From Puccinia triticina (lineage: Eukaryota > Basidiomycota > Pucciniomycetes > Pucciniales > Pucciniaceae): DNA of 64,000 nt. Below, in pieces: positions 1,471 to 27,539 of this stretch. The notes beneath the pieces were generated by a model that worked only from the letters and a program-made list of their open reading frames with translations, did no database searches and was not told the DNA's origin. Within the stretch, counting starts at the first letter, position 1; the number at the start of each line of letters is the position of its first letter. The stretch covers positions 1,736,001-1,800,000 of the forward strand of contig NC_070572.1 of assembly GCF_026914185.1 (NCBI RefSeq). The letters run 5' to 3'. Made by a program: the position numbers and the translations under genes.

Positions 1471-1511
1471 GGTACGTGCATAAGTCCCTCCTGACAGAGC
1501 TTGCTTTGCAA

Positions 1512-1690: not shown

Positions 1691-1723
1691 CCCTGAAGTC
1701 TTGAGTAAGGCTGTGACCAAAAG

Positions 1724-6442: not shown

Positions 6443-6530
6443 TCTGAAGCAAAATATCAACAAATCAAATTGTGGGCAAGAGTCAAGATCCACTACTGAC
6501 CGTCTTCTGCAGATATAATTCTTTTTCAAG

Positions 6531-7505: not shown

Positions 7506-7936
7506 CTTTCTGGGGAGCGGTAGAGATTTCAATTTCCGTTGGATCTGATAAGAAGCCAGCAAGAGATCAGAAACTGTATAGAAAAATATTCAGCAAGCAG
7601 ATTCAAGAGAATCTCACTGTTGTTGATGCTTGGTGTCAGTGCTTCAAGCGCAGGATTGAGAAAATCCATTTTGATTTGGCTGGGTCTTGACGATATTGAT
7701 ATGCAACTGGATAGAGATGTGGATATTGGGGGTGTGACCAATGGAGTTTCACAATGTTGTTGTTATGTGACAGTGTCTTTTGGGTCTTTGGAGAGAGTCT
7801 CTAGGAGTCCCTACATGTACGAACTTGGGCATGAAATTTGGGGACAGCTGTAAAATTAATAGCGCCCGCGGTGGGTTGGGTTGAGTCGGTAAATTCCAAC
7901 TAGAGACCCAATTTACGGCCTGCGGTGGAGTTGCTC
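7506..7936. other. 3' flank of Harbinger element, no clear gene
   Basis: The minus strand is open for 70 codons (7741-7529) and may hold a first exon of the accessory gene, but nothing recognisable is encoded. The last 80 bases carry subterminal versions of the end sequence ('gcgcccgcggtgggttggg' at 7861 and the terminal repeat at 7922-7936). Confidence 0.35.
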
Positions 7937-8088
7937 TTAGTCTTGAGCTAACTTGCTAATTTCCCTCCTTGGGGGAGCAAAGCAACCTTTAAAGGAGGGA
8001 CTTACGTGTTATGTCTACCCCGCGGCCTGAGAGAATTTCACCTTTTGGTTGGCACTTTTTTATAATCAACATAGCACATGGGTCTCTG

Positions 8089-8319
8089 TGTTATGACATG
8101 TCACTTTAGGTATCATACTATTATCACAGTTTTACATATTTTTATTACATCATCACATACTTTACTACATAGTTTCATCATGGTTTTAGAAGTTTCTTCT
8201 CATCAACCCAATTACATAATCAACCTTGTATATATACTCTATTTGTGGTGCAATCTTATTCTTCCCTTGGGGGAGTTTTTCCATCTCATCTCGCCGTATC
8301 CTGATATCTTTGCTCTTCA
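8089..8319 (+). repeat. Copia-1 left (5') LTR, 231 bp
   Basis: It begins TGTTATGACATG and ends GCTCTTCA. The right LTR repeats it with four substitutions apart from the MITE insertion. No TATA box can be assigned with certainty; 'tgtatatatactc' at 8228 is a candidate. Confidence 0.92.
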
Positions 8320-8337
8320 GGTTATGAGCCCGCGCTG
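8320..8337 (+). promoter_or_regulatory. Copia-1 primer binding site, half-tRNA initiator Met type
   Basis: GGTTATGAGCCCGCGCTG starts immediately after the LTR. Its complement resembles the anticodon-arm part (..GGGCTCATAACC) of initiator tRNA-Met, the internal 'half-tRNA' primer site known from Drosophila copia. Copia-2 uses the same site (GGTTATGAGCACCAT). Confidence 0.75.
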
Positions 8338-8439
8338 TCACCAGCGGGATTGTTATATACTCTACCCCACATTTTTTTATCTACTTCGGAATTAGCTTTG
8401 TATCACCACATGGCATAGCTACTTCTCACATTATCTTTT

Positions 8440-9079
8440 ATGGTTCAGACGCGCTTGCGGAATCCTGAAGTTATCATCCCCAACTTCTCCACTCAAGTCA
8501 CGCCTCCAGTATCTGCAGCTCATTTGCCTGCGTCATCAATTTCATCATTCCACTCAGTTGATGAACAATTGTCTATGTCCAATGACGAAGAGAGTTCTGC
8601 TTCTTTTGTTCCTGGTTCTTTTCCGTTAACACTCTGTAGAGACTGTAAAATGAAGATGTGTCTGGTGAGAGTGGAACTCACGACCTCAGCTATGCTGAGA
8701 CACATACTAGAGTGCTGCCTTTACCAAATAGGCTACAGACGCTTGTGGCTGCCAGCTGGGTGGTTGGTTGGTAGTGCTCATGGGTCGATCCAACAGCCCT
8801 CCATACTGTGGTGATACATCATGGTAGCAGACTAACAGACAACTCAACACACTCACTCCCCGCCCTATCTCCTCTGCTCCAGTCAATTCAAACATGCGGT
8901 CCAGCTTTTGTCCGTCTGTTCGCTCTTCCACCCCTTGAACTCTCAATCCCCCTCCACCAAATGAACCCTTGTCAACCGAGTCGGAGGCGAATCCCGGGCC
9001 GTCAAACAAAGGCAAAACTCGTGATGTTCCCAAGATTTCTCCACCGACGGCTCCACCCTCTCCAGACAAAGCTGATTTG
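8440..9079 (+). pseudogene. Copia-1 gag, 5' portion, interrupted
   Basis: ATG at 8440 opens a Ser/Pro-rich N-terminus (MVQTRLRNPEVIIPNFSTQV...). The frame is disturbed by a tRNA-like insert around 8658-8742 and ends at the Copia-2 insertion (duplication ATTTG at 9075-9079). Gag resumes at 32101. The N-terminus is low-complexity and has no recognisable domain, as is usual for Gag. Confidence 0.55.
8658..8742 (-). tRNA. tRNA-like sequence with long variable arm (probably a SINE head or pseudogene)
   Basis: The 85-nt minus-strand sequence folds like a class II tRNA: acceptor arms GCGTCTG/CAGACAC (6 of 7 pairs), TA, D arm GCC..GGC with a GG-containing loop, variable arm CTCAGC-ATA-GCTGAG, and a perfect T arm GTGAG-TTCCACT-CTCAC. 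The anticodon arm is one base short (GCAC, 8-nt loop, GTGT), and the T loop is TTCCACT rather than TTCGANN, so it is unlikely to be a working tRNA. Its position inside the Copia-1 gag fits a SINE insertion. Confidence 0.5.
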
Positions 9080-9386
9080 TGTTGCAGTGATGAACCTGGA
9101 ACAGCAGAAGAGAATGATGATGGTTGTGGAAGGATTATCATTGCATCAGAGAGGAAAAACAAAGAGAAGAAGACTGAAAGAGAGAGAGAAAGAAAAACAG
9201 GAAAACACTCACCTGGAACAGCAGAAGAGAATGATGATGGTCGTGGAAGGATGAGGAAAGAGAGCCTTCCACGTCTGCTGCTCCAGGTGACTACAATGGT
9301 GAAATGTCACAGACTGTGATATGCAGAAAACAGGTTTGAAGCAGAAACAGAAGAGAGAAGAAAACAAACACTACACAACCTCAACA
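9080..9386 (-). repeat. Copia-2 3' LTR, 307 bp
   Basis: On the minus strand it reads TGTTGAGG...CTGCAACA and is preceded by the polypurine tract. It contains an internal near-duplication of 'cctggaacagcagaagagaa' (9098 and 9211). Confidence 0.93.
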
Positions 9387-9488
9387 CCCCCCCTTGCTGA
9401 AAACCACAAAAGAAAAGAAAACAAGTAACAAAGAGATAAACTGGAAGAAACAAAAGAAGAGAGAGAAAAAAAAAAAATTAGACAACCC

Positions 9489-9871
9489 CAAAACGAGTAC
9501 GGTGATCCACCAAGAGAGTCCGGCCAAGAGGTTTGGTGAGCATATCAGCAAGCATGTCCTTGGTTGAGACGTGTAGAACCAAGATTTTCCGCTGCTTGAC
9601 GCATTCCCGAGAGAAATGATACCGCGCGTCAATATGTTTTGTGCGCGCATGGTGCTCAGGGTTTTTCGCAAGAGCCTTGGCGCCAGCGTTATCAATGTGC
9701 AGAGGGATTGCCGTCTTAGGTCAGAGTTTAAGCTCAGTGAGAATGTACCTAAGCCAAAGCCCCTCTTTGCAGGAGTCGGAGAGGGCTTTGTATTCCGCCT
9801 CGGCGCTAGAGAGTGAGACTGTTGCTTGTTTGCGGGATTTCCATGAGATAGCCCCGTCCCCAAGGCAATAC
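9489..9871 (-). pseudogene. Copia-2 RNase H, C-terminal part
   Basis: This is the end of the Copia-2 polyprotein beyond the EnSpm insertion. It reads LGDGAISWKSRKQATVSLSS, AEAEYKALSDSCKEGLWLRY, then, after a TGA at 9721-9723, AIPLHIDNAGAKALAKNPEH, RTKHIDARYHFSRECVK and DMLADMLTKPLG before the stop near 9489. The AEAEY catalytic Glu and the TKHIDARYHF and DMLTKPL signatures are those of Copia RNase H. Arg (CGA) fits the TGA position. The other part of the domain ends at 27540 with SDWAEDQHDQRSTSAYTY. Confidence 0.85.
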
Positions 9872-9914
9872 CACCGCCCCAAAAAGCAAGGCAATGTGTG
9901 CACATTGCCATGCT
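9872..9914 (+). repeat. EnSpm left terminal inverted repeat, 43 bp
   Basis: Identical in inverse orientation to 27494-27536. Positions 19-38 of the repeat form a perfect 9-bp stem with a 2-nt loop. Similarity stops after position 43. Confidence 0.93.
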
Positions 9915-10587
9915 CAAACATTTATGTAAACCCACTTGTATGTACCACAAATAGAAGTGAAACCTGTGGTGTATATGTTTTTTATTTGCTTCTTATCCCT
10001 TCCCAAACTTGCCCCTACAAACATCTTATGTTGACATTTGTGACATCTACCTCCAAAAAAAATCTCAAAAGCTTGGAGTTCATTTGAAAATTTCTTCTTT
10101 TCTGTGTCATTGTGAGAATGAATCAATCCAATTTCCCCTCCTATGGCAGGTCACCTGATTTCCAGTTGAAATTTATCCAAACACAGCACTAGCTGTCAAT
10201 GAATTGAGTTAATTAACCTTTTTTGTAGTTTCAGGCAGAAGTATTCCCAAGTTTTTAGACAGGCTCTCATTACTGAAATTAACTTATATGAAAATAGGCA
10301 AAAAAGCAACAAACCAGGCAGTGGCCACAGAAATTTCTGAACCATTATGACCTAGGCATTTATCTGCCATTACATATTCACTTTCAATTCAAAAGCAAGA
10401 AACAGAAAATTGAAAATACTACCCAGATAGAAAAATTCAAGCCAGCCAACATTTCAGACAGAAGCCAGTAGGTACAAGTGAGAAGTTTAACATAGAGTAA
10501 CAGTAAGTATTTATTTGGGGAAAGTAATATGATCAAGTTACAGTATTTTAGACAGGAATACTGTTTTGGAAAGCAACAAAAAACTGC
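9915..10587. other. Subterminal region of the EnSpm element, no gene seen
   Basis: AT-rich sequence with short motifs such as 'tttatgtaaac' (9920) but no recognised coding potential. CACTA subterminal regions normally hold transposase binding repeats; none is obvious here apart from the ATGTAAA-like words. Confidence 0.4.
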
Positions 10588-13041
10588 TTATTTTGCAGCG
10601 ACAGCTCGAGGGACTTGAAATTGTTTTGCCGGGAATTGGTTTTGGAGACAAACAAGGAAGTCGGAGGTAATTGCTTGGGCAAGTTGTGTTATTTGCAGCC
10701 GGTGGAAATTGAAAAGGCAGTTGGGGGTTAGGAAAGCATCGATGAAAACACTATCAATATACGCGCCTGTCCTTTTCCAAACAGGTTCCAAACCCTCGCG
10801 TTGAGGAATACTGTTTTTGAAGATGTGTTCGATGGCGCCCAAGAATCCCAAAGCTGATGCACCGGAGGCAAACTGACGATCGTTAGGAGCCAAAATAAGG
10901 CCACGAACGCCGGCCACAAGGTAGAGGCAGAACGGGGTATAATTGTGTCGTGAGCGATGTTGGTCGAGTTCCTTCTTTTGGAGAACTAAGGCTTGACTTT
11001 CAGCAGAAGGTGTGTCCGGTTCAGCGTCGGCGAGCGCAGACCCTCTTATGATTGAGTAAGTGATGAATATGTCGAGTATCAAGTCATGGAACTGAATCAG
11101 GGGTTTGAGCGACATCTCGTTGCGTATCTTTCCGTCTTCTGCATTCATTTCGGGTGTAGAAGCCTTACAGCTGTTGAGATACTCAATAATGCGCAAATGG
11201 GAGCCAAGGTTCGTGTTGTCCAAGTTGTTGATCGGAGGTGGTTTGACGGCGAATTCCTGTGCAGTCAACTGGATAGAAGATGCAATGCAGTTCGCCCATC
11301 GAGACAAATTGACCTTTGATGGTTTTTGGATTTCGCGAAGTAAGAGGACCAGGGGATATTCGACATGCTTGCTTGCCTTCAACTCGGGTAGTTTTGCCGA
11401 CTTGAGCTGTGGAATATTGATCAAGCTAGGTGCATACCATGGCTCATCATTGGCCGGTAATAATATGACGTCCACTACCGCCGAACCACAAAAACTTTAG
11501 CTGGGTGAACTGAAAAGGAGATAAAAACAAGTTAAACTCACAATATGTTTGGATTTCTTTTAGCCATACTTTGTGTTTAGATTCGGACTGAAACAAGCTG
11601 AACTGAGGTAATTCGGGTGGTGGGGTTCTCTTGTGCATGGATTTGGCTCGGCAGTCGATGAATGAATTGACGGAATTATGCGCGGACAAAAATTTTTGAC
11701 GGTTGAGATGGCCTTGGAAAGTCTTCAGAATGGAATGCACCTCAAACCTGAGCGATTCCTTTTGGATAAAAGTGATGGAACTGGGCTGAGGTGTAGATGT
11801 CGAAGGAGCTGCGGTTTGAGCTGAAGGTGCAGTGGGCGCAGGAGTTGGGCCTCCAGTTGGAGCTGCTCGGAGGGTGATCATGGGGGCCGGTGGAGGTTGA
11901 AGCAGAGGGGCATCGGTGATATTGGCCGGTGGAGGGATGGACGGTCCCGACATGTGAAGGATTAAACCAAGATCCGACGGACTTTTGGCCCCAGTCGAGG
12001 ATGGTAAGGCCGGAGCGGGGTTAATTACAGCCCCGGTTGAGGTTGTTATGGACAGATTTGAATTTGACCCGGATGACAACTGGGTGGTAGCGAGCCCTGG
12101 TTCAGTGGTCGCTGCAGCGGAGGTTGAGGAGCTGGTAGGTTTGGGTTGGTGGCCAGGGAAATCTTGAGAGGTTGAAGGTGCTTTTGAAGAGGATTTCAAA
12201 AAAAAAAAACATTCGAACTTAAGAACATGGGGAACATGAATAAGAGTGAGTCGGCATGCAAAGCTTACCCATATGTTGCGCGGGTGACTGGGCATCGTCG
12301 ATGTCTTCGACAGCACCGAGGGGATTTGGATTGTCTTGGCTGGTCGACGGGGAAACATTGGAGACTTTGGAGGGGAGCTCCGGATGGGGACAGTTGATTC
12401 CCGACGATGAATCTGTGTCCTCAATGCAGAGACGTTTGGCAGGTGGTTTTGACGGGGAGTGCCTTTGAGAGGCTTGGTCTCTGTCCTCGTCCTCGTCGGA
12501 CTCATTTGTCAAGTCAATAAGATCCTCCGGTGGGATTGGCTTCCCTTCGCGCACATCTGGAAGAATCTGGGGAGTCAGGACTTTACAATACGCATGGGGA
12601 ATGGAATAGAAACTTGATCACCTTGCTTTCTCTTTCGGCACTGGTCATGAATGTTTCGGAGCCCAGAGATGATAGTAGCCGGGGTGACCGGAATTGACTC
12701 CGACAGACCCAAAGCTTGCTGTATAATTTCCTCCAGCTTTGAGCAACTGGTGACATACTCTTTTTTTCCAGCTTGCTTTCGCTCACTACGGAGGAGGGTC
12801 GGTGGAAGACTTGTCTTGTAGTTTGCATAGGCCTCAAGCGACGGTGCCGGTCCTTTGAGGGTATCTAAAGCTACAGATTTCAGAGTGGTATTCAGCAACA
12901 ATAAGCCGATGTGAATCCAGTAACATTACACAGACCTGCAGTTGAGTTGACACTCCCAGAGTCGAGCTGGCCATCCGGGGCAGTACCACTCAGTGGGAGG
13001 AGTTTGCTGGCTGGGAGGTGGTTGTTCGGAGGTGAATCCAT
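10588..13041 (-). CDS. Cargo gene A: 722-aa protein with SUMO-interaction-like motif, function unknown
   Basis: Five exons join in frame: 13041-12936, 12870-12622, 12556-12269, 12180-11542 and 11474-10588. The start is the first ATG that opens the frame (MDSPPNNHLP). Residues 36-118 are a helical, basic region (IHDQCRKRKQ). It is followed by IPPEDLIDLTNESDEDEDRD, which looks like a SUMO-interaction motif (hydrophobic core DLIDLT plus acidic tail). Residues about 215-340 are low-complexity Pro/Ser/Thr. The last 300 residues look folded and include a Trp/Tyr-rich stretch (NDEPWYAPSLINIP) and ATASDF-like helices near the end. I do not recognise the family. All exons are open, so it is probably functional. 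A nuclear regulator of transposition is one guess; the family is not known to me. Confidence 0.62.
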
Positions 13042-14041
13042 TGAGATTTGAGATTTGGCCGCCGACTGGGACAGATGATCAAAAGACAAGGATACTGGTT
13101 TTAGATCAGTTATTGTGAAAGTCAAAGTCGAACAAGATGAGGTGAGGATGATGGAGGAGGCGAGAAATGTGGGGGAAAAGGCCAATGACACGGGGAGAAA
13201 GATTGATGAACCTGCAAACGAATGCTCAGAAATCATCAACGGATAGATTAGCAAGTGAGAGAGAAAGGATCTACAGACAGACAATGACCGATGGTGCCGA
13301 AACTTCATGATTGGGGTGTGTGAGGGGTTGAAGTCAAAGGGAGGCCAAGACTAATGAAGAACATAAGCCAGCGAGTTGCTGATCAAAGAATTCACTAGCT
13401 GCCAATTGCGTGCCGTCAGCAAAGAAAAGCAAGCTAAGGAAATCAGTTGGGCGGAAAGTTGTAGAGTATATGGCGATGAAGTTGAAAGGTTGAAAGGAGA
13501 TGATGCTTACATACAGAGTTCCTGCTTAGAAAAGGAAAATCCAATGAGCATTGATGCGGTCATCACTTGTAGATGAAAGAAACCTTGCCGCGCAGCCGCC
13601 TTTCCGACATAAGACCTTTATCTTGATGATCACATCAACTCAAAGGGCTGTGAGGATGAATGTGGGATAACGGTAGCTGTGAAGATGGGTAGAGCAGTAT
13701 GCACATACCGGGGGTGAAGGTGGGAACTGTGCCGATTGTGAGGCAGGTCTAAGCTTACATGAATACACAAAAACCAGGCGCTGATGAATCCATGCATGTT
13801 CTCGAAGCATGTAGTTATTTTCCCGGTTTGTAAAAGGTCTTGGCGCGCCATTTCTTGTAAGATCTAAATATGTATGTGTTTACATAACATGTCTGGGGGT
13901 ATTTTATGTACATAAGAGAGAGGCTGAATGCAAATGCAGCTCTGAATTTTACCTTCGGAACCATCTTGCCGTATGGATTGTAATCTTGCACAACACATGG
14001 CGTCCAGGCGGCGTGTTCGCTGGAAGTAAGAGGAAAAAAGT
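13042..14041. other. Spacer between cargo gene A and the first palindrome
   Basis: No gene supported. Minus-strand frames here (for example 14192-13815) are open for over 100 codons but have no recognisable content. It probably holds the promoter of gene A. Confidence 0.35.
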
Positions 14042-14103
14042 GGGGTGTCACGAGTATCATTAACTTGGACGATCGTCCAAGTTGATGATACTCGTGACGC
14101 CCC
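14042..14103. repeat. 62-bp near-perfect palindrome around the TTGGACGATCGTCCAA core
   Basis: Two 31-bp arms pair with two mismatches (both A/G differences). The centre is AACTTGGACGATCGTCC followed by AAGTT, and the outer arms contain 'cgagtatcat' and its complement. It lies between divergent cargo genes A (minus) and B (plus). Transcribed, it would form a long hairpin; as DNA it is a strong symmetric binding site. Confidence 0.85.
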
Positions 14104-14360
14104 ACATAAGCTAAAGCCATTACCTGTACTTGAACTTTTGGACATGGTCCATACGCAGAAACTTGGGTGTTTGTGAATTGCAGGATCACCATGAGTGTCC
14201 GGCCAAGGATTTCCCATGATCTAAGGCACTTGTCCGAAGTGTTTAAAGGGGAAATGCGCCACCCAAACTTGTCAGATGAATGGCACTAAACCAAGTACGG
14301 TAGAATTTGAGGGAGTATGAATTAACACATGGGACGCAGAGGAGTATGAGGTTTGGGGTT

Positions 14361-14397
14361 TACCGTTGGTTTGGACGATCGTCCAAAGTGAACGGTA
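14361..14397. repeat. Palindrome copy 2, extended arms
   Basis: The core TTTGGACGATCGTCCAAA is at 14370-14387, with outer arms taccgtt (14361) and aacggta (14391) also pairing. Confidence 0.8.
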
Positions 14398-15375
14398 GGC
14401 CGGGTGAGCAATTTGTGGTTGAACATCTCCTGCGGATGAGTTATTTGAAAATTTGGGGATGCTTTCTTACGGGTAATGGGGTCGGTAATTCATCCAACTT
14501 GCCCGTTGACACTGATTGTATTTCTGGCCATCAATGAAGATGTACATATCACACTCGCCTCTTGCTCTTTCCACTTTACAATCCACCGCTCTCATGGTTT
14601 CCTTATGCGGATGTGTATGTATTACATACTTGTTTGTTTGTATCCCCTACTTTCCCCTATCACGCCTGATCACACCTTATTTATTACAGGGGAGCTGTTG
14701 CCGGTGTGAAGTTTGGAGGCAAAAAATCACAATCATGGCATGGTTTGCTTGTGATTCCTCCATATATAGGTGAAGAGGAAAATGTACACTGGGTATCGTT
14801 TTGATTTTTGAAGTCACGGGTGGGCGGGCAGATGGACACACTGCATTGCGCACTTGTGCAGTAAATTTGGTGAGAGGTGGAATGTTTGGGTAAGTTCATG
14901 TGCAAGAACTTACATATTTATGTACACAAACCGTGTTTGAGTTTGGCGAAGAGGGATGTTCCGCGCCTTTGTTTTCATCGGCAATTGATTGGGAAGGATG
15001 GGCCACCCTTTCAGCAAGGATCGTGGGGAAGTGTGTTGTTTGAAGGCTTCAGGTGGGCGGCCAGAAGGAAGACAGATCAATCCGCCTGGTGAGTACGATT
15101 TTTGCCTATCAGTATCTGTGGTTTGTTCATCCTCAGTTTCCCCCTCCACTCCACATCAATTCACCCGGTCAACTCCGTCTCAATTCCAATCCGTTTGTGA
15201 CTACAGCCCTTGGTTTCATTTGGACCCCCGGTGAAAATTGATCATGGATGTCGAAGAGATTTTCTTTCAAGAGGACGCTGACGAAGGCCTTGGTGAAGAA
15301 AGACCAGCCGGAGGTGATTATCCGTATTCTCCTGCCTGCAAATCTTGATTTTTGCAAATGATGACCAACTGACAC
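14398..15375. other. Spacer upstream of cargo gene B
   Basis: No gene supported. Contains ATGTAAA/TTTACAT-like words (for example 'acttacatatttatgtacac' at 14909). The 5' untranslated region of gene B probably lies in the last few hundred bases. Confidence 0.35.
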
Positions 15376-16591
15376 ATGATTGATTTGGGGAATTTTATGA
15401 CGTGGTCAGAGGTCCCGCTCGAAAAGCTAGCTGATGGCAGCAGCCGTCGCCGCAGGACCGCCAAAAGCCGTACTCAGGAACGGCAGACCAATGAAAATCT
15501 GTCTAGAATGATAACCCGGGCAGCCGATGACAAGCCACACCATCGTGAGAAAGTCTTACGTAGTCTTCAGACTTTTGCCCGGGCAATGATGGGGCTGCCA
15601 AGCAATGCTAAACCACAAGATCTTCCGGATTCTGTAACCTCCGAAGAGCTATCTAACTGGGACACCTGGAGGGAGCGCCGCAAGGAAGCCTTCAACGACC
15701 GATTGAAGGAAGCGATAAAGAAAAACCCAAAGGCCAACGAACAGGAAATCAAACTCATTCAGAAAGAAGTCACGGATCAGCTCAAAAGCCGTCTTGTACC
15801 TGTTACGTTCCGAGGTTCTGCGTTTTCTGCTACGTTATCAATCTCCTTGCACGTGAAGAGGGACATGGAAGCCGACTTAGCAAAGGCTGGATTCCACAGA
15901 TACACTTTTGACTGGAATGCGAAACTTGTTAACAATAGCTTATGGAATGCGGTAACAGTCGACATAACAATTCGCCACTGGCTTCCGTGGGCAAAGCGCA
16001 TCAACATCGATGTCAACCAGTCGGCACTCCCAGGGATCAAAGCGCGCTTTCTCGAATGGATTTCCAATCAAGGAGTAACTCGAGCAAAGGCTCAACTCAC
16101 CCCACCTCAACTTGCCGCACAAAGAAAACGCATGCAGTATGTTAGAACTACGAAGAGAAAGGTAAGAATCTGGACATCCAATGTGTTTCCTGGAGATTGG
16201 TTTCTCAACCATAGATTGACAGATGTTTCTTTTTAACATATATTAGATTGCTAATCTCCGCGGTGACACCTTTCTGGGCCTCTACCCCGAGAAGAAGATT
16301 CTAGGACATTTACTTCGCGACCCAGATGCGGTCTCTGACTTTGAAGAAGAAAATCCCGAGACATTGCCCCGGAGAATTGCGGCACACTGGCGCAGCACCG
16401 AAATGGAAGACATCATTCGCTGTATCGACCATGCTGCATTGCAGCGTGCAAAAACCACTCAGAAGAAGATGTCTGTGAAAGGGCTCTTGGACCGGAAAGA
16501 CACCCGAGTGCCTACGTTGCAAGAACGGATCGATCAAACTGTCCCAAACCGCTTCCCCGCTGACGCGTATAGGTCCTCTTATCTACAATAA
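15376..16591 (+). CDS. Cargo gene B: 376-aa basic protein, paralogue of gene D
   Basis: Two exons, 15376-16161 and 16247-16591, join at AAG|ATT to give 376 residues with no break. The N-terminus is Arg/Lys-rich (SSRRRRTAKSRTQER). The middle reads EADLAKAGFHRYTFDWN and LWNAVTVDITIRHWLPWAKR, the exon end is basic (YVRTTKRK), and the second exon holds DPDAVSDFEEEN and HWRSTEMEDIIRCIDHAALQ. The same order of motifs and the same intron position occur in gene D, so the two are paralogues. I know no function for the family; the basic stretches suggest nucleic acid binding. Its place next to a transposase suggests a role in the element's own biology. Confidence 0.72.
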
Positions 16592-17341
16592 GTAGGCCAA
16601 TTCCAAGCAGAACATATGACGAGCGAAAGAATGGGACTCGACAACCTGGCAAAGGAGATGATACGTAAATCATTTGGTGAAGGATATTGTCGCCCACAGG
16701 TGCAGGGAAAAGATAATTCGACGGCGCTTAATCCGGCGGCCAGCAACCAGGCGGGGCCCTCAGGTCCTGAAGTTCAAATGTCTGGGTAACTGGTATGTGT
16801 CGATTTAGACCTGATATTTTAAGATCTACACTGACATATTTTGGAACTTTGGGCTTGCTTTAGTGTCATCTAGCGGGGATCAAACATTTGGATTGGGATA
16901 CCGGAAGGAGTCGAGATCCGGACCCCCAGCGGGGTGCTTGAATGGCTAGTTTGCTCAACCTTTACAACAATCGAAAAAAAGAAGAAAATAAACTAGCTTA
17001 GAGGGCAGGGGAGAGGATATAGTATGAGTTGTAAAATGATTTCTTTGATCTTTATACAAATATCTGTGACAATCGATGGCCAATCAGAGGTAGAGGTTTG
17101 GGAAACCAATGTAAATATTTTCCCTGTGAAATACATGTGCATGTTTAGTTCCACTAGCTACCCCGGCGGGTAAGGGGTGTGTGTACGTGTGTGTGATTGA
17201 TGAGGTGTGGAGCGGGTGACTTTCGAAGTGAGAAAAAGTTATATTGCAGGCAAAAATATGCCTTGTGTCAAATCATATTGGAATCCGGGGAGATTTCACC
17301 TCTGTGAACAGCCAGACAATATACTATATTTCTTTCCTTGT
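16592..17341. other. Spacer downstream of gene B
   Basis: No gene supported. A few ATGTAAA/TACATGT-like words near 17105-17145. Confidence 0.35.
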
Positions 17342-17728
17342 TTACCGGGATTCCTGAGGGGGAAAAATCTTCAGAAGTGTGTCCTGGGTATTCGTGCAGG
17401 AGAATGACTGACCTCTGCCTAGCTTGGCCCGGCGGGCCACCCAAAGGGCGTAAAGGTTGGGTATTTGATCCTCAGTCAACTCCATGGATAGGGCCTCCTG
17501 TCGTGCCCCATTGTAGTAAGTGTTAATGTGCCTCAGGAAGTGATCGTCGTCCAGGGCCTTTTGGAGGGGGGTCCTAGTGTCGTTGTCTGGTTCAAACTGG
17601 GTATTTATCTTGTAGTTCATGGATGCGATGACGCCGCGCAACCATTGTTTCTGGGCATGGGTTAGGTGGTTGGGGATGGAGCCGACACCTGTTTGTGTGG
17701 AACACTCTGGGTGGTTAAACTTGCACAT
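17342..17728 (-). CDS. Possible small cargo gene, 128 aa, unknown
   Basis: From ATG 17728 the minus strand encodes MCKFNHPECSTQTGVG, then LTHAQKQWLRGVIASMNYK and NLYALWVARRAKLGRG, with a non-random, globular composition. A donor-like site (GGCAGAG|GTCAGT, near 17420) hints at further exons downstream. The frame extends upstream without ATG to about 17800. No homology is recognised, so it may be one exon of a larger gene or not a gene. Confidence 0.35.
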   Translation of the reverse strand: MCKFNHPECSTQTGVGSIPNHLTHAQKQWLRGVIASMNYKINTQFEPDNDTRTPLQKALDDDHFLRHINTYYNGARQEALSMELTEDQIPNLYALWVARRAKLGRGQSFSCTNTQDTLLKIFPPQESR

Positions 17729-18256
17729 GGAGAATTTTTGGCAGCTTTGAGGGGGGAAAAAATGGCAATGGATTTGACTGGGGGCGGGGACAAGACACAC
17801 AAATCATGGATGGGTGAGTGCTTATTTATTTCAGAAGGCCAGGTAGCTGGCAGGTGGCAATGATGTCGATGAGGACCCGATCTGGTGGCCCAGATCACGT
17901 GAAACATGTGGAGAAGTGCCTCAAAGTGAGCAGGGGCTGTCCAGAGGTTTGCCGCGGGCAAATCATGATGAGAAATGGGGGGAGGGGTCAATGGTGATGG
18001 TATGTTTTGCAAATTCTAACATGGTTTGAGAGCGGCAAATAGGTAGACATGCAGAAAGTAAGAAATTCAGGGGGGGAAACACATGTGCCGGCAGGTTTCA
18101 GATTATTGGGTCAGGTGTGTGGGTATGACGCAGGAAGCAGAAGCGGTGGAAGGGCGGATGAGCTGTGAGAAAAAAAAATATGCTTTGGTTGGATGGGGCA
18201 ACAAGAAGGTGGAGCGTAACTTGACTCGTGTGCCGGGGGGGGGGATTGGATGGGGA

Positions 18257-18274
18257 TTTGGACGATCGTCCAAA
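18257..18274. repeat. Palindrome copy 3
   Basis: TTTGGACGATCGTCCAAA, perfect, between the possible small gene and the 3' end of the transposase gene. Confidence 0.85.
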
Positions 18275-18326
18275 GTGGGATTGCAGTGCGGTGAGGTGCC
18301 GTCGGGGGATACAGGAGGGATTTGTG

Positions 18327-18410
18327 ACTTGGACGATCGTCCGAGTCGGAAAGGTTGGGGACTTGGACGATCGTCCAAGTAGGAAGGAGTTGAAACTTGG
18401 AGAATCGTCC
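18327..18410. repeat. Palindrome copies 4, 5 and a decayed 6
   Basis: ACTTGGACGATCGTCCGAGT at 18327-18346 (one substitution), ACTTGGACGATCGTCCAAGT at 18361-18380 (perfect, 20 bp), and ACTTGGAGAATCGTCC at 18395-18410 (decayed). The copies are spaced 34 bp centre to centre. Together with copy 3 they make a cluster just past the transposase gene. Confidence 0.85.
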
Positions 18411-18479
18411 GTGGGGGCAGGAGGGCCGAAAGCATGGTTCTTTGGAGTCGCAAGGGCCGCTTGAGAATTTATGGTATCC

Positions 18480-21400
18480 GACATGCATGCAGCATGGGAA
18501 TCTGGCAAACTCTTCAATCCTCTTTGAAACCCTGAGAATGTAACTTTTTCATCAGTTGCCACCGGGGGGAAAGGCCACTGAGGGAACGGCCGGAAAGGCG
18601 GGAGTTCACTCACCAAATGATGGACTATAGCCACGGAGACAGTTTCGTTATCAATGCCAAAGACGCCTGAAGGATTCCTCAACACCGCCACATGACCTAT
18701 GACATGTTTGATGCATAACACAATTGTTTTAGGGGTGTTTGGTCTACAGAGCAATTTGTAGTGAAGGCCGGACAATTCATTGTAAGGGTTCCATCGAGGC
18801 TCCTCTTGTTCAAGGTCTCCGAACAGTGCGACTTGAACAAATGTAGCGTTAGGTATCTGATTGGTAGCAAAAATCGTCTGTATACTTCCGAATAAGTCCT
18901 TCTCTCCGAGCCGAACGTGCACGTATGAGTTTCCTGCATGCCCTGTTTCGACAGTGTAATGTTTCTTTTGTGCATCCTTAAAACTTGGCTGCATGACCAC
19001 CATAGGGTTTAAAATCGTGGAATTGCTTGAATTACTTCCCGATACGTTATGTTCCCATTTTGCGGAAGAATAAGGGGGGTGTTGGTTGAGGTGATCTAAC
19101 CACTTGGTATATAATTCGCCATCAATCACCGCAGGAGAAACCCTTGCAGTTGCACGCGTGTCGCCTCCGTCAAGTTGTCTATCAGCCACATCACTCAATC
19201 GTTTCAAGGTAGCTCGCTGGATCCACCGGCGAAACAAAGTCTTGCTCAAAACCCCTGGAGGCGGGCGAGAGTCAGTTGATGTCTTCAATGTGCATAGTAC
19301 ACATTGACATCGCGAATTCAAAGAGCTCACCGGGGTGATTGTTGGTTTTGGCTTTCCCAAGCAGCCCATTCAAACGTTCCTGAGCCCATGCCGCAAAGGA
19401 AGCCGGTGGACCAAACCGTTCAATTACTTCTGGGAAATGTTGCAGGATATGGATATTCGGTTTGGAGTTCACTTTGGGCCAGTTGGAAAGAGTGTGCTCC
19501 CTGTACTCCTGGATCGTCTTGCGGATCGATGTTAAATTTCTGCTGGTGATCACCCGATGGTTCAACAAATGGATGATGCGAACTAATTTTACCAAGTTTT
19601 CGGCCAAGATTTTTCGGTGATTGTTTGCATCGCACAAGTTCCATAAAGGGAATAAAACAAGCGGGTAAAATACCGTGTACAAGATTCCCCATTCAGCTGC
19701 CTTCAGGGACCCTGCACTTGCGGCGCCTAATTTGAGAGGCAGGCGGTCAACCCATGAGGGTAAGCAGGTTTGCTCAATTGCCCGCCGGACGCACTCAAGT
19801 TCTTCAGGTAGCAGATGCGGCATCTGATCATCCAACTGCCTCTCCGGAGTGCTGTCCTCCTCGTTGTGAGTGTCCACTTCGCTTGCCAAGCTTCCCCCAA
19901 GAGATTGTCGTGATGCTCGGCTAGATTCCTTCCGCGGATTGATGGTTGCTTGGCTTGAAACACTAGCCGGTCGGTTGGTGAGGCGCGCTCGGAGGCTGTA
20001 CTGATGTACTGTGGCGCCAGACGCTCGCGATCCTCGCGAAGAATTGGCATCTTGTCGTGTTGCTGGAAGCTTGTCTGAACTCGTTGAGGCCAAAGCTAGC
20101 ACATTTTCTGTTGTTAATCGGCGCTTTGCCGGATGCTCGTCATCTTCCGCGGGCCGTTTCTTGCTTTGAATTTTCCTTTGAATTAACACCTCAAACACAC
20201 TGGCTTGTGTGCTTGGTTGCATTTTTCGCAATTTCTTCAGATCGGCCTCTAGTTTCTTGCCAGTCGCCGCCAACCCAAAGTACGAGAGAGAATGATCTTT
20301 GAGCACGCCAAGCATTAAAGCATGCATAACATCGATACTGGAGTATTCTAAGGGCCTCCAATAAGGTAGTTCGTTCAACGGGCTATATCGCACTCCTTTT
20401 TCTTTGACTATGGCGTTCCTGCGCGTGCTGTCAGGGCTATTCAGCCATTTTTCCGCCCATTCGATGTGATCGTCATGCGTTCGCGGAGGAAATTGCGCCG
20501 GATCAACCACATTGATCTGAGGTCGAGAGAGCTTACAGAAAGAACAGAAAAGAGTGGCTGAATGGGAAGCAAATCCGGCCACCTTTCGCAGTGCTGGGAG
20601 ATCGGCAATCAAAGGTAGCATGATTGCGCGGATGGTTCGTCCTGATGGAAAGCGTGATGTTTCTTCGAATACGACCCCATTCGAAAATTCCAAGAACTCG
20701 GTCACAAGCGGTTGAAGCACTTTGAATATGTGATCTGCTGACGGCTGGCCCGGCGTGATCCCAAACAGGAAGATATTTTTCTCTAGATAGCGTTCTCCCG
20801 GAGGCAAGTTCAGACAAACCAAAGTTATAGCCCCCGCCTCCAAACACTTACCTCCTATCTTATTGCCATGAGGGTTGAACCAGTCGACGTAGAGGCTGAA
20901 AACAAGGTTGCCAGACGTACTTGTGTATGGTTCAGCCGCTGTGCTGGGGAACTTGAACGTGTTCCATACGGTGCCGTCCCATATATCGCGCAGGACACCA
21001 TCTTGACGTGTGTAGTGCAAAGGGGTGTCGACGAGTTCCTCAAACTGGTCACTTCGGAGCTTCCTCTGCAGCCATTCCTTCAGTTTCTGGTAGCAGAAAC
21101 TCTTGATCGGTCTCCATGCTTGTTTCCCAGAGGCCGTAAACTCTTTGAAAACTGGCTCGTCGCAGGTTCTTGTCCCCTGCTCATTTGACGTTGAGAGGCT
21201 CCTGGCGGATGTGAAGAATTTGGCCGTACAACGAGTCGTCAAGGTAGCGTGCATTTTTTGTTTAGCCCAACTTTCAGAATCCGGAATGGCTTCATAAAGC
21301 GTCCAACATTTCGGGCAAGCAGCCTGTTCTTGAAAACTACAGTCTAACCCGAGTCGCCTTGTAACCGTACTTATTGATGCCGGGATGTTTTTCAAGATGT

Positions 21401-21956
21401 GAGATGTTTGGAAACCAAATTGGTCTCCCAAGCGAGTTAGCTTTGCCTTCTCATCAGCCAGGAACCTCTCACATGCGTCTTCACTCATATAATTCTCAAA
21501 GTGCAGCCGAGAAACTTGCCGCAAAACATGTAGCGCATGTTCATCGATGAACCGATATTCTTGTTCAGGAAAGTTGTTTTGGCCTATCGGTTGAGCGTTG
21601 TGCGCGAGGTTGTCCTGAAGGGTGGGGGCCTGAGCGTCTGATTGCAATCTGAGTTGGGCTCTACCAGCGGAGTTAGGATTGGGGGCTCCGAGGTCGTCTT
21701 GCCGGGGATTGGGTTGTGCGCCTGATGATCCACTAGCATTCATCTCGGATGGAATCGATTGAGACTGCCGATGTGGTAAAGAACCTCCAACTTCAAGACG
21801 CCCAGGTCGTGGTCCAAGTAAGGTGTTCAGTTCAGCGAGCCTTTGGTGCTTTCGAAACGTCACATCTGTTACCGGAACACCCATTCGTTCCATTCCAGTG
21901 TCGTCGCGGTAAACCTTTCCTGAACACCCAAATTCATTGCAGTTACAGATGCGCAT
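18480..21956 (-). CDS. Tnp2-type (EnSpm/CACTA) transposase
   Basis: This is the transposase that should cut and join the 17.7 kb element. The first ATG in frame is 21956 (MRICNCNEFGCSGKV). Exon 1 (21956-19331, about 875 residues) and exon 2 (from 19254) join as NNHPG|VLSKTLFRRW. Visible Tnp2 signatures: VFSLYVDWFNPHGNK (near 20880), FGITPGQPSADHIFKVLQPL, LIADLPALRKVAGFASHSAT, LFCSFC (near 20540), and ELPYWRPLEYSSIDVMHALM (near 20330), matching the DxMHxL block of the family. Ser/Arg-rich linkers lie around 20150-19850. The 3' end is uncertain: the frame stays open through the palindrome cluster to 18098, so the real stop or a last splice probably lies near 18.5 kb. No nonsense codon is seen. 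Confidence 0.83.
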
Positions 21957-22486
21957 TGACTGATGAATATGTATTTGCCCACCCAATGGGAATATCAGTC
22001 ACTGTAACCCAGTATTTTCAGTGAGGAGAGGTGAGAGGAGGACAGTCTGGAGAGCTATGTACTTACGGAGTGTGATTGGTGCTTTTAAACCTTCCGAATC
22101 AATAAGTGTTCACTTGCGGGTTGTGGAATTGATGTTTGCAGGCGATGAACACGTCCTATTCAGGCAGGCATGGGTTTCGAAGCTTGACAATTCGACCTAC
22201 ACTTTTGATGCATTCGAGAGGTTCCCTCAAGTCAGCACAGCCGGAACACATTTACATATGCGGTCCTGTTTACATCTAGCATTCCAGCTTCCATATGTAA
22301 AATCTAGCATTCTAGTGGCCCCCACGATGGCAAAGAGGCGTGAAAAATGATCCCCCGCGCTGATGAGACATGATTTCTCCAAAGTGCCCAGGCCAGCATC
22401 CATGTGAAAAGCGACGTGATAAAGTCCCCCTAACCTGTACAGAAGATAAGGGATCCTTATTAGTGGAGCCCTTTGTGCAATCGTCA

Positions 22487-22510
22487 GAACTTGGACGATC
22501 GTCCAAGTTC
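22487..22510. repeat. Palindrome copy 7, 24 bp perfect
   Basis: GAACTTGGACGA followed by TCGTCCAAGTTC. It lies upstream of the transposase start, between it and divergent gene D, so it is well placed to act as an operator for both. Confidence 0.85.
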
Positions 22511-22578
22511 ACCTTGCACCATCATCCGATGGTCTGTTGGAGAATTCCTGTAGGAGGCTCAGGAAACCTATGATCAAC

Positions 22579-22594
22579 TTGGACGATCGTCCAA
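22579..22594. repeat. Palindrome copy 8
   Basis: TTGGACGATCGTCCAA, perfect 16 bp, in the transposase/gene D intergenic region. Confidence 0.85.
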
Positions 22595-22718
22595 AGCTGC
22601 ACTTAGACTTCCAAGCCAAGTTGATGGATCATTTCCCTTGCTGCTCCACCCATCATCAGCCTAGCCATCCAAATGTACGAATACAAATGGATGTATTCAA
22701 AAAATGATCAAGGCAAAA

Positions 22719-22732
22719 TGGACGATCGTCCA
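22719..22732. repeat. Palindrome copy 9
   Basis: TGGACGATCGTCCA, perfect 14 bp, about 240 bp upstream of the gene D start. Confidence 0.8.
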
Positions 22733-22970
22733 AGTTACCAATGTTGCAACATACATTGGTATCTTCATTTTCCTATTATCTATCTTCCTCATTGTTCTCA
22801 AGGTGATCACCCACCAAAGGGGGTGTTTATCTCACCCCCTTTCAAAGATACCCACTGTACGGGCTGTTGCAGCAAAGAATCAACGTACCCACCCCCCACA
22901 GTGACACTCCCATCTTTCCCGCCGCTTTTCACCATTTCTCTTACCCCACAACTTGTCCATACTGACCTCA

Positions 22971-24093
22971 ATGAAGACCCATCTCACCAGCCTGACGAAC
23001 GGCACCATGCCCACCAGTATCACACACCTGCAGTCACACCTCACTGCAAGCGGAATTCCCGACGGTAATTCAGCATTTTCCCGCTCCATGCATGACTTCA
23101 CTCGGATCCTGCTGGGTATTGAAGCAACAAAGAGCGACCTTCCCCCTTCGCCGCCCCCATCTCAACTTACAAGCTTTCAGACAAAATCAAACGAGGCATA
23201 CACCAACACTGCTACCCTCACTAGCTTCCGTTCATACCTCTCCGAACACAACATTTCCCAGCTCGCTGTTGGAGGGAGAAGCAAGAGTATCCCGGTAGTA
23301 TGTCGGGATTTTTTTATTGAAGATCTGGCCAAGGCGAATATCCATCACGTCACTTTTGCCTGGCACGAATCCCCAGGTTCCCCTTACAACGAATGGTTCG
23401 GCAGCATGATTTGGAAGCACTGGATGTTTGCTAAAAACAATGGTCTCCTACACAAATACGCGATCTCTCCTGCCGAAGATACATATTCAAACGCCCAGAA
23501 GGTCTTATTCCGTTGGATTCATGGTCGCCAGTGCGATCTTCGACAATCATCTCGCACCCCCAACTGGCGTGAGCTCAAGTCTTCCCGCGAAAAAAGGAGC
23601 AAAAGGAGGAAACAGGTTTGTCTCCAACGTCTTTTGCAATAAAAACATCCATCATAATCTGACTTCCACTCTGTGTCTCGCGTTTCTGCAGTTAAGCGAT
23701 CATCGTGTAGATACTTGTGTGGCTTTGTCACTTCCTGCCAATTTGACGCGCATCTTCATGGACGCAGATTGCACCTCTGACACGGAAGAGGACGATCTAG
23801 GAAACCTCTATCGCATAAATGTGCCATGGCGCTCGCAAGAATTTACCCAATTTGCTCACAATTTGGACAATGCGACCATCGATCGTTTGCGCAGGGAAAA
23901 AGGAGCTCGATACATACAAAAGACTAAATTGCTTGAACTACGCCGACGTCCCGCTATCAACACATCTCAAGCTCCGCGAGTCCCCATCGGCTTGCCCCGC
24001 AACTGCTACAATCCCGTCTTCCTCCAATCGAGACCCGAAGTTGCCCAGGAAGTATTGAATACTCAGGAACCGTTAGAATTTCCTTCAATCTGA
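22971..24093 (+). CDS. Cargo gene D: 348-aa basic protein, paralogue of gene B
   Basis: Exons 22971-23615 and 23692-24093 join at CAG|TTA without a break. The start is the first ATG in frame (MKTHLTSLTNG). Motifs follow gene B: IEDLAKANIHHVTFAWHE, YNEWFGSMIWKHWMFAKNN, KVLFRWIHGRQCDLRQSSR, the basic exon end SSREKRSKRRKQ, then in exon 2 DADCTSDTEEDDL, VPWRSQEFTQFAHNLDNATI and RREKGARYIQKTK. The intron lies at the equivalent point of gene B. Divergence is high, so the duplication is old and both copies have been kept. Function unknown; three palindrome copies lie in its upstream region. Confidence 0.72.
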
Positions 24094-24299
24094 TTATCTC
24101 CGATTATCTTGCTGGCGTTGTTGATTAATGGATTCTATCATAAGCCGGATCACCTCCCTGGTGTTATCACTCGTTTGATCAAACGCTAAGCTGTAGAATC
24201 ACTCTCATTGGCACGTGACCGTCCCCAAAATATATGTAAATAGAAAATGCTTACTGGGCCAGCTCCTGCTTCCTTTTTTGTATCTACAAATTTGTATGT

Positions 24300-26763
24300 T
24301 TACATACGTCTCTTGTCATCAGCTGAATTAACATTCACGATCTGGAGAATTATCAAGCGTACCTCCATGATATTTACTTCAATGCTACCTTCTACAAAGT
24401 AACGAATTATGTGAGTAGTGCACTGTTGGCCCAGGCGATAGGCGCGATCGGTTGCCTGGCTTTCAACGCTTGGGTTCCAACATGGCTCCTGATGGTGTTT
24501 TCCGTTACTATGGGTCCCCAGGCGCTCTCCCTATATGTCATCAGGCTGACTCACCATCAAGTAAACTTTTTGCGTGCATGTCAGGTCGATCCCCACTCCA
24601 CCTGCTCCAACGGTTGCCAGAAGTACTCGAACGTTGGGGTCCTGCCTAAGTGTCTCTAAGCTCCTCCCCCTCTGTTGGAGTGAGCACCCGCCATTGAGCT
24701 GTTCAAAATGAATCCCCGCTTCGGCGAGTGCCACACCCACACTGGAAAAAAACCACCTTAGTGGACAAATTCATTTCTAATCAAATTAATACTTAAAAGA
24801 AAAGCGGCACTCACATCTGCAGGTAGTTCGTCCACTGAGAAAAAACCACTGCTTTTGCTACTTTTCCCCCCTGCTCCAATGTCAAATGCTTCTTCAGATC
24901 GGTTATCAAGTGGACAATTTTCGGACTGTCGGACCATGTTGTTTCCGTTTTTGGTAGACTCCACTTGCTCATATCAACCAATCCCGGATGATCACAGTAT
25001 AGCCGCAGCATTGTTAGTTGTTGAAAAAACTCTGCCGCATCCCAGGTTTCACTCTCTCGTTCGACTCCAAACATTTCGGCGAACTCGTAATAACGGTTCC
25101 GGTAGTCTTCCCGCCAAGGTTCCACCAGCTGTACCGCTACTTGTTCTTCCACTTTAGGTGGCAACTGGAGCACCTCTGTTTTCAACCGTCTTAAAGAAAC
25201 CGTGGTCAGCAACTGTTGAAGCAAATTGATGGCCTTCACTGATTTGCGTCGGATGTTTGGTTTGATAAATAACTGCCACACTTCTTCCCTCGCCCACGGG
25301 TCGACTCGGACAAATCGAAGTAAGGTGTATAGGTCACTCAGGTGATTCTGCAACGGCGTTCCGGTTAAGCATAGTTTTCTTTGACTCTCCAATGCCAGAA
25401 TGGCCCTGCTTCGCTTTGTTGATGGATCACGAATCAAACTAATAAAAAACCAGTAATCAGCAACAATTTCCCCAGGTGGTGAAATCCTTCAGAGATAACT
25501 ATCTCACTGGGCTTCATCCAATATTGTGCGAAACCAGGTTACTCCAAACAAAACTTCACACCGAGACTCGTGATGATTTGCCACCGTGTCGTACGTGACA
25601 AGGACAATATCGTTGGCCCAAATCTCTTGTCCGCTCCACTTTTTCCGCTCTTCCCCGTGGTACACGGCATACGTGATGAGACTTGTGTTGAGGTGTTTGA
25701 GGATCTCCGCCTCCCAATTGGTCAGGGTCAATAAGGGGCATATCACCAAAGTCGCCTTCGCATTCCGTGTGTCCTTACTAGCAAAAAACGCAGCATCATT
25801 TTTGGTTCTTGCAATTAAGGCTAGGGAAGTTAAAGTTTTTCCCAGACCCATGTCGTCGGCCAATATGGAGCCTTGATTTTGATGATTAATATCCGCCCTA
25901 GTTTGTCCTGAGTCGGCCAGTTTATTTAAGCAATACTTGAGCCACTCGCAGGTTGGTGAGTTCCAGAATGCGGACAGTATGTTTGATTCTGGTGATTCTA
26001 ACTGTAGAATGAACTCGAGGGCTCGTTGTTGGTGTGGTAAGAGAGGTGTTTTGCAGCCAGAAATTGATGCTGCAGCGGCCAAACGTTGCTGAATCCCAAT
26101 ACGAGACGAATGAGGAATCCCGTGGCATTTTTCGGGACAGTAGCCTTCAACCTTTTCTGTTTCAAGATTACTTTCTTCAAGTATTCTGAGTACCTCGGCA
26201 GAGTGATCGGACGGTGAGAACAGTATTAATATTAACGTCAGACTTGGCATTGGGGTTGGAGAAGCAACAAGGGTAGCCTCAATAAGGACGATCGGGTACG
26301 ATGTCTCAAGGAAGGTGTTTTCATCTGCCGTTCGATTTAAATATGTATTCAGCTCTGTTGACACCGTTCCAATAGGGCCTATAAGCAACTTTTTCAAAAC
26401 ACTTGATAGCGGTTCGGCGACGTGACCGGCTTGCTCCCCTGGCCAGGTAAAAACGTTGATGGTTTCTCGTCCTTTCTGAAGAAGTGCTCGTGTTCGGCTT
26501 ACATATTTGATTGATCCTTGAAGACGATCAACTATGGTGCAACTACTCGATATCGTCCCAAGGCATTCGAGGTTTTTTTGGCGTTCCTGTTGGGTATCTT
26601 GCTCCGGATTCATTTTCATGAAAAGCAACTCAATTTCTTGGTATACCGTACATAGAAAGCTATAGCAGCATATATTGTTTGTGATAGATAACAGGAGGAG
26701 AGGAAAACAGAGCAGACGAATGGTAAGCCGGCCATATCGGATCTGCTGTTTGGCAAGTGGCAT
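24300..26763 (-). CDS. Cargo gene E: SNF2-family DEAH ATPase, 744 aa
   Basis: Exons 26763-25508, 25438-24815, 24741-24555, 24488-24363 and 24341-24300 join in frame. Helicase motifs are complete: DDMGLGKT (Walker A), ATLVICPLLTLTNWE, DEAH rebuilt exactly across the first intron (GA-GCC-CA|T, giving DEAHLIRD), LTGTPLQN, then AVVFSQWTNYLQ, LLATVGAGGVGIDLT and DRAYRLGQ. The arrangement resembles the Rad5/Rad16/HLTF branch, but no RING finger is visible between the two lobes. The product would remodel or strip proteins from DNA. The N-terminal 230 residues, beginning with a hydrophobic stretch, are not recognised, and the true start could lie in an upstream exon; the last short exon is also inferred. 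It lies wholly inside the EnSpm ends. Confidence 0.8.
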
Positions 26764-27493
26764 CACACTGTGGGCACTAACGACCTAGTACATACCAAAA
26801 GGCCCAAAGCTTGAGGGTTGACGCAGAGCTTTTTTGCTGATGATTTGCTGACCAGTCCTCCACATCAGCTCCTATCAGCGTAGTGCTTCAAAGTTCATGG
26901 GCAGCATTCATACACATTCGTGACCACAACATGTTACATACTGTGAATCCCCTTAAGAAACCGATCTACATACATAATAGGTTATTATCCATCCACATCC
27001 TCCCTGAATGTCAGTTATCGAAAGGTTACTTTTTTCCTCTATTTTCTGCAACTGCAACTTTGGAGACAGAATTCCCTCCACTCTTGTGTTCACATCATCT
27101 GAGTCAGGACCCTTGTGTTGTAATCCTGACAAGAATTTCATCATCAAGTACTTCTGAGCAAAAGATGTCTTTTAACTCTTTCATCATGCCTTCTCTTGGA
27201 ATTTTCAAAATGGAGTAAAGAAATACAAATAAGAAAAACCAATGTGTATCTAATTTTGGGGATACACTGATTTGTTGACTGAACTTAACTTCAATCTATG
27301 GCGAGGGCCAGAAATCAAGACCAACAGCCTCCATCTCTCATATACCCAAAAAGAACTTGCATTGAATAAAACCCCATATTTGTGGCTTGTAAGGGAAAAT
27401 TACTCTCAAAGTAACATCAAAATTGAGAGGTGGTTAAATGGTCACAACTCATGGCTTTTGTATGGGTAATTTTTGTGTAATAGCAAGCTTTGA
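26764..27493. other. Right subterminal region of the EnSpm element
   Basis: AT-rich, no gene recognised, no palindrome core. Presumably holds the promoter of gene E and subterminal transposase sites. Confidence 0.35.
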
Positions 27494-27536
27494 AGCATGG
27501 CAATGTGCACACATTGCCTTGCTTTTTGGGGCGGTG
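27494..27536 (-). repeat. EnSpm right terminal inverted repeat, 43 bp
   Basis: Reverse complement is identical to 9872-9914; next to it lies the duplication TAC at 27537-27539. Confidence 0.93.
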
Positions 27537-27539
27537 TAC

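Follow-up and report, generated by a model that had tools for sequence, protein, structure and literature searches.

A 17.7-kb DNA transposon of the wheat leaf rust fungus, Puccinia triticina, is very probably self-contained: a multi-gene element with accessory genes that work for the element itself. It lies at 9872-27536 of the 64,000-nucleotide stretch of DNA that we analysed (the window; C15:1736001-1800000), and is a precise CACTA/EnSpm-type insertion inside a Copia element. DNA transposons usually manage with one or two proteins. This one has six conserved genes: a tnp2-type DDE transposase (T), an SNF2 ATPase (S), two paralogous basic proteins (A and B), a protein of some 700 amino acids (aa) as modelled (D), and a small protein (E). 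The genes move together, as one block bounded by CAC...GTG ends and flanked by target duplications of 3 bp (once 4 bp). The set predates the split of two clades, and the ratio of nonsynonymous to synonymous change (dN/dS) is well below 1 in all six genes.

Insertion and ends

The element begins and ends with perfect 43-bp inverted repeats, at 9872-9914 (forward strand, starting CACCGCCCCAAAAAGC) and 27494-27536 (reverse strand). These are CAC...GTG termini of the CACTA/EnSpm kind (CACCGCCCC...GGGGCGGTG), and each contains a near-palindrome, GGCAATGTG-TG-CACATTGCC; perfect palindromes there are shorter. The first 20 bases of the end, allowing up to three mismatches, occur at only two places in the window—its two ends—where shuffled sequence gave a mean of 0.02. 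TAC precedes the left repeat (9869-9871) and, as its pair, follows the right (27537-27539); at the junction of uninterrupted Copia relatives the triplet is single. Three-bp duplications are a CACTA/EnSpm trait, and in the genome searched (Pt15 haplotype A, 122,823,596 bp in 18 contigs) 17 of the 18 readable end pairs have them, the remaining pair having 4 bp. Repeated subterminal motifs, a trait of plant CACTA elements that is not obligatory, were looked for as arrays of 8-10-mers in the outer 720/760 bp, and none was found.

The host of the insertion is a Copia element (RVT_2, E-value 1.7e-43). The 200-bp flanks of the insertion were searched one by one, never joined, and at an uninterrupted relative they abut with a 3-base overlap (C16:272549-272748 and C16:272487-272551), at 94% identity over the left flank and 91% over the first 65 bases of the right. 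A second relative fits abutting flanks if unaligned ends are allowed for (C4:807924-808109 and 808114-808313; 78% and 80%). Because the separate flanks abut at uninterrupted relatives, the insertion is exact. The original prediction for this DNA had named the perfect repeats, the TAC duplications, the exact borders and the Copia host, and was right on each. The ratio of observed to expected CpG is 0.76 in the element versus 0.56 to its left (1-9871) and 0.66 to its right (27537-64000), a pattern that a younger insertion, or one partly protected, would be expected to show.

Copies and gene order

With up to three mismatches allowed, the genome matches the end pattern of the window element and its closer kin (clade 1) at 46 forward and 43 reverse places, and a reversed control at none. 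One pair of ends encloses a second full-length copy, C3:5673863-5691538, 99.76% identical over 17.7 kb (31 substitutions, 11 gap columns) and flanked by its own ACA duplication. Two divergent relatives of 21.8 kb, C9:3189209-3211028 and C3:1723531-1745295, share 99% identity with one another and carry the window element's genes in matching order and orientation between different target duplications. The C9 relative is ~66% identical to the window element overall; per 500 bp, identity is 65-81% in most gene stretches versus 52-59% between genes, the low exceptions within genes being the middle of D and the start of T. All seven readable clade-1 end pairs have matching 3-bp duplications. Several copies of one gene set between matching ends at different loci, proposed beforehand as the supporting observation, are thus on hand in the window, C3 and C9 copies.

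Larger and smaller objects share these ends. C7:4849826-4919900 (70 kb) and C1:2089321-2132299 (43 kb) have clade-1 ends with matching 3-bp duplications, and are probably swollen by nested insertions. Clade-1-like end pairs only ~0.3 kb apart, resembling miniature inverted-repeat transposable elements, are found at many places (C3:7720570-7720881 and C6:1923316-1923626, for example).

The genes keep company genome-wide. Protein searches gave 145 matches for A, 223 for D, 111 for S and 140 for B, and the linkage count took in 143, 128, 110 and 140 of these, respectively, second pieces of one copy of D being excluded. After merging, 111 of 141 A loci have B no more than 16 kb away, as do 93 of 104 S loci; of the D loci, at least 99 of 124 have A within that distance, given the 128 of 223 D matches counted. 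Chance would account for about four or five in each case. For the transposase, 50 of 396 candidates were scored, and the counts are lower bounds: at least 41 of 48 transposase loci have three or more of A, B, D and S within 16 kb. A contrary arrangement—ends around the transposase alone, with the other genes at fixed loci elsewhere—was looked for among these loci and not seen.

Gene order is equally regular. Counting all 52 T rows, 76 clusters hold four or more of the five genes A, B, D, S and T; two of these lack B and four hold one gene twice, and the other 70, which could be scored, all read S+ B- (T+) A D+ or part thereof. The orientation of A splits by clade: relative to B-, it is minus in 17 of 17 near clusters and plus in 53 of 53 far ones, where near and far denote rank in the match lists and a few near-type pieces fell among the far.

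The far type forms a second, much older clade with ends of its own. Two far loci, on C7 and C14, are 99.66% identical over 18,087 bp and end in CACCAGGGGGGAATGTGTGGCAC, which occurs in the genome, with up to three mismatches, at 304 forward and 309 reverse places (control, 0). The ends are again of the CAC...GTG kind (CACCAGGGGGG). Eleven clade-2 end pairs enclose clusters with at least three of A, B, D and S, in elements of 20.6-30.2 kb; ten have 3-bp target duplications, and the eleventh (C14:5174494-5195087) has the 4-bp CATA on both sides. The transposases of the two clades are ~40% identical. Just inside the clade-2 ends, too, there is a near-palindrome (GGCACTCT/AGAGTGCC), and our guess is that in both clades these mark the site of a transposase dimer.

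Eighteen further clade-2 end pairs, chosen by eye among about 100 of the 613 end places, enclose just 1.3-4.2 kb, too short for the gene set. They look like non-autonomous derivatives, which would imply that the proteins act in trans. Many clade-2 end pairs are of near-equal size, ~2.48 kb apart (C1:7465223-7467704, C2:2213493-2215975 and C5:2637145-2639630, for example), and are a successful family of short derivatives.

Genes of the element

Exons were placed by splice signals and conservation, and what follows are predicted gene models. Gene T (18098-21956, reverse strand) has exons 21956-19331 and 19254-18098, conserved to 18599. It matches Transposase_21, the tnp2-type DDE family of CACTA/EnSpm elements, with an E-value of 8.7e-12 and 45.1 bits against a cut-off of 28.6; the Plavaka family scores 24.8 bits, under its curated cut-off of 26.3. 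Stretches like the D, D, CxxC, H and E motifs can be located, and guided by PMC12730594 we read them as the putative catalytic motifs.

Gene S (24303-26613, reverse strand) has exons 26613-25508, 25438-24815, 24741-24555 and 24488 onward, its 3' end being tentative. Pfam recognizes SNF2-rel_dom (E-value 5.4e-63) and Helicase_C (8.5e-14), and with Transposase_21 these matches bear out the transposase and SNF2 ATPase of the original prediction. Among solved structures the best match to S is RAD5 (3.2e-51), remodeller motor domains following at 2.8e-40 and weaker. Its homologues, in the best 120 of 7,710, are Puccinia proteins first, then HLTF-type and fungal SNF2 proteins. Membership of the Rad5/HLTF group would call for a RING and a HIRAN domain beside the motor; neither was found in S up to an E-value of 10, and an initial suspicion of a HIRAN domain was dropped. 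Judged by its sequence, S is Rad5/HLTF-like, without RING or HIRAN.

Genes A (15373-16591; exons 15373-16161 and 16247-16591) and B (22971-24093; exons 22971-23615 and 23692-24093), both on the forward strand, are the two paralogous basic proteins that had been predicted. They are 24% identical over 337 aa in the window element (E-value 4e-11) and 23% over 292 aa in clade 2 (5e-7); because the similarity is found in both, the duplication that produced them is older than the clade split. Gene A likely has an additional short exon upstream of 15373.

Gene D (10588-12925, reverse strand; exons 12925-12587, 12500-12269, 12180-11542 and 11474-10588) had been put forward as a 722-aa protein; a conserved gene is there, modelled at ~700 aa with a tentative start. 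Clade-1 relatives match its C-terminal exon at 71-73% identity and clade 2 does so at 26%; the other exons of D found no match in clade 2.

All five predicted proteins are present, and a sixth conserved gene, E (17345-17803, reverse strand), was overlooked. Its conserved core of 85 codons (17411-17665) is 59-60% identical in two clade-1 relatives and 33% in clade 2. E sits between A and T in clade 1, and on the opposite strand between T and B in clade 2. We considered it as a third exon of the transposase, which the clade-2 placement rules out; it is a gene of its own because there it lies on the other strand. E was recognized in elements read at full or nearly full length, no genome-wide search for it having been made.

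P. striiformis, P. graminis and P. sorghi have proteins homologous to A, D and S, at roughly 45-76% identity. P. triticina isolate 1-1 BBBD has both A and S listed on a 17,673-bp contig. P. striiformis has A and S under neighbouring tags (KEM48_011164 and KEM48_011169; PSTG_04336 and PSTG_04346; H4Q26_004790 and H4Q26_004795), and likewise A and D (KEM48_005236 and KEM48_005233). The close tags and equally sized listed contigs point to linkage of A with S and of A with D. Named matches of A and D are all from Puccinia, in a search that requires shared 5-residue words and that remoter homologues could escape.

Selection and mutation

By the Nei-Gojobori method (NG86), on codon-aligned segments found by similarity, dN/dS between the window element and the C9 relative is 0.195 for T (1085 codons), and 0.19 for B (344), 0.21 for S (673), 0.22 for D (492), 0.16 for A (375) and 0.32 for E (85). 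The D count leaves out exon 12230-12500, which is unmatched in all three relatives. Values against the C3 relative are within 0.03 of these, S being compared over 159 codons. Differences are 2.1-3.1 times as frequent at third codon positions as at second ones in six of six genes (window versus C9). On these alignments, constraint is as strong on the accessory genes as on the transposase, E having the highest ratio. Together with the gene set shared across copies, this supports the proposal, made in the original prediction, that the extra genes serve the element.

Several observations weigh against it. Synonymous sites are nearly saturated (dS 0.86-1.3); because of this, and because the segments were picked by similarity, we put weight on equality with the transposase rather than on the absolute ratios. 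Many copies are not intact: the C9 relative has one in-frame stop each in D, S and T, the C3 relative has one in T, and stops are absent from only 13 of the 27 A rows that scored best and from only 10 of 52 T rows, some counted stops being perhaps intronic as the T query ran slightly into an intron. The window element is itself affected. Its genes had been described as having no nonsense codons, and this is not borne out: A shares 99% identity with PTTG_03317, a protein of 435 aa, and its frame ends 66 codons before that protein does. Single-gene clusters exist (23 of D, 16 of A, 11 of B, 6 of S), which we take to be fragments, split loci or search misses. Finally, A, B, D and E belong to no Pfam family, ten A and D homologues included in the scan, and structure prediction was of no use (mean predicted local distance difference test score 43 for the first modelled exon of A, 41 for the C-terminal exon of D). 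When profiles of A and D were compared with solved structures, all matches were weak (E-values 0.67-1.2).

The mutations that separate near-identical copies have a signature. In the three pairs compared, 25 of 31, 128 of 190 and 14 of 19 substitutions are CpG transitions, with CpG columns amounting to just 8.5-9.6%; 20, 81 and 11 of these transitions, respectively, are in TCG/CGA context. TCG hypermutation of Puccinia repeats is described in PMC12730594, and CG methylation of young P. graminis transposons in PMC8444563. From their sequences, the elements look like targets of CG methylation or of a related process.

What the accessory genes might do

Six conserved genes that travel together, most of them in dozens of copies of one genome and older than the clade split, make it possible to test what a transposase requires beyond itself when the genome is methylated. 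We picture a cut-and-paste CACTA/EnSpm transposon that needs, or profits from, six proteins of its own. T would bind the ends, perhaps at the near-palindrome, and cut and join. S, to judge by its homologues an ATP-driven translocase of DNA or nucleosomes, would act on the element's DNA; A and B may bind DNA as a pair, and D and E may bridge. Working together, S, A/B, D and E would open or remodel the element's silenced chromatin, allowing transcription of the genes and pairing of the ends in the face of CG methylation. Overcoming silencing is the most plausible need because of the CpG scar, and a chromatin-opening role for S with its partners is, for now, our tentative preference, plausible and short of probable. 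Two things count against it: nothing in these data ties S directly to chromatin or methylation, and the CpG pattern is a sign of exposure to mutation, not of escape from silencing.

In its strongest form the proposal is that this transposon lineage encodes a dedicated chromatin-remodelling complex (S, A/B, D and E) that frees the element from silencing by CG methylation and serves its short derivatives in trans. We regard that as rather doubtful. Were it true, the SNF2-domain expansion of wheat rusts would largely be the motors of these transposons, not host regulators. The SNF2 N-terminal domain is enriched in wheat rusts (log2 ratio 2.56, Q 5.8e-12), and is filed under transcription regulation in PMC5295586. 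Since 93 of 104 S loci have B within 16 kb, we suggest that a good part of this enrichment may be transposon genes. Alpha-kinases stand in the same enrichment table, and PMC12730594 places alpha-kinases in rust IS3EU transposons; other enriched families in Table 3 of PMC5295586 might likewise stem from transposons.

S could instead handle the branched or gapped DNA that excision and integration leave, in the manner of Rad5/HLTF; A, B, D and E would then be subunits that bind DNA or bridge. RAD5 as the best solved-structure match, and the many HLTF-type proteins among the best named non-rust matches (in the best 120), argue for this. The missing RING and HIRAN domains argue otherwise, as do the strong matches to remodeller motors and a CpG scar that suggests silencing to be the element's problem, and on balance we find the DNA-handling role somewhat unlikely.

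Other explanations deny that the genes serve the element at all, and fare far worse. Selection on the host might keep them because they benefit the fungus; low dN/dS taken alone is compatible with that, as is the occurrence of multi-copy genes in several Puccinia species. The best matches, however, are mobile copies at differing positions with fresh target duplications, and several are broken, which makes host benefit quite improbable. More improbable still is passive cargo, host genes trapped between transposon ends without a role. Gene capture by CACTA elements is well known, and stops in many copies would suit it; yet two clades have a common gene set and order, the accessory dN/dS is as low as the transposase's, and the homologues of A and D are at element loci and in other Puccinia, no such host gene being seen. 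That assembly joined unrelated genes is hardly credible, as a second full copy stands at another locus, all 18 readable end pairs have duplications, and misassembly is made very unlikely by the gapless HiFi assembly of Pt15 haplotype A (PMC9927501) and by A and S on equally sized 17,673-bp contigs of 1-1 BBBD.

Comparison with known systems

The element can be set beside several known systems. Starship giant transposons carry a tyrosine-recombinase captain (DUF3435) at one end; Pfam scans of this element's open reading frames found no such captain, and a DDE-type transposase instead. The Rad5/HLTF ATPases include the closest solved-structure match of S and are prominent among its named non-rust matches; unlike them, S has no RING or HIRAN domain that we could find, and is transposon-encoded. 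The 20.5-kb plant CACTA element Tgmt* of soybean (PMC2613891) is alike in size class, tnp2 transposase and CACTA-type ends; it is described with one large two-function gene and subterminal repeated motifs, whereas the leaf rust element has six genes. VANDAL transposons with VANC (PMC10398659) are DNA transposons that encode an anti-silencing protein, as is proposed for the leaf rust element. They are, in that account, a plant family with one such protein, which acts on tandem repeats, and with no SNF2 gene; the leaf rust element has no visible subterminal repeats in its outer 720/760 bp.

Other systems for comparison are in the rusts themselves. Puccinia has EnSpm (CACTA) families, some with TET/JBP genes and some lacking them, and related families from P. 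triticina are mentioned (Kojima 2025, PMC12730594). They share the 5'-CAC..GTG-3' ends, the 3-bp duplications and an EnSpm/Plavaka-like transposase. Their accessory gene is a TET/JBP dioxygenase, in contrast, and Pfam found no such domain in the open reading frames of the window element, nor in ten clade-2 frames scanned; SNF2 does not occur in the main text of that paper. The same source describes rust IS3EU transposons whose TET/JBP and alpha-kinase genes stand in conserved order and are held to serve the transposon. IS3EU elements resemble ours as rust DNA transposons with several accessory genes in conserved order; they differ in transposase superfamily, in their 6-bp duplications and in the accessory genes themselves. 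The system had been called undescribed. As far as the S/A/B/D/E set goes this stands, no description being found in the literature searched, a scope that ends short of Repbase and the supplement of PMC12730594, the paper that mentions the related EnSpm families. Rust DNA transposons with ordered accessory genes were already known, and what appears new here is the S/A/B/D/E set.

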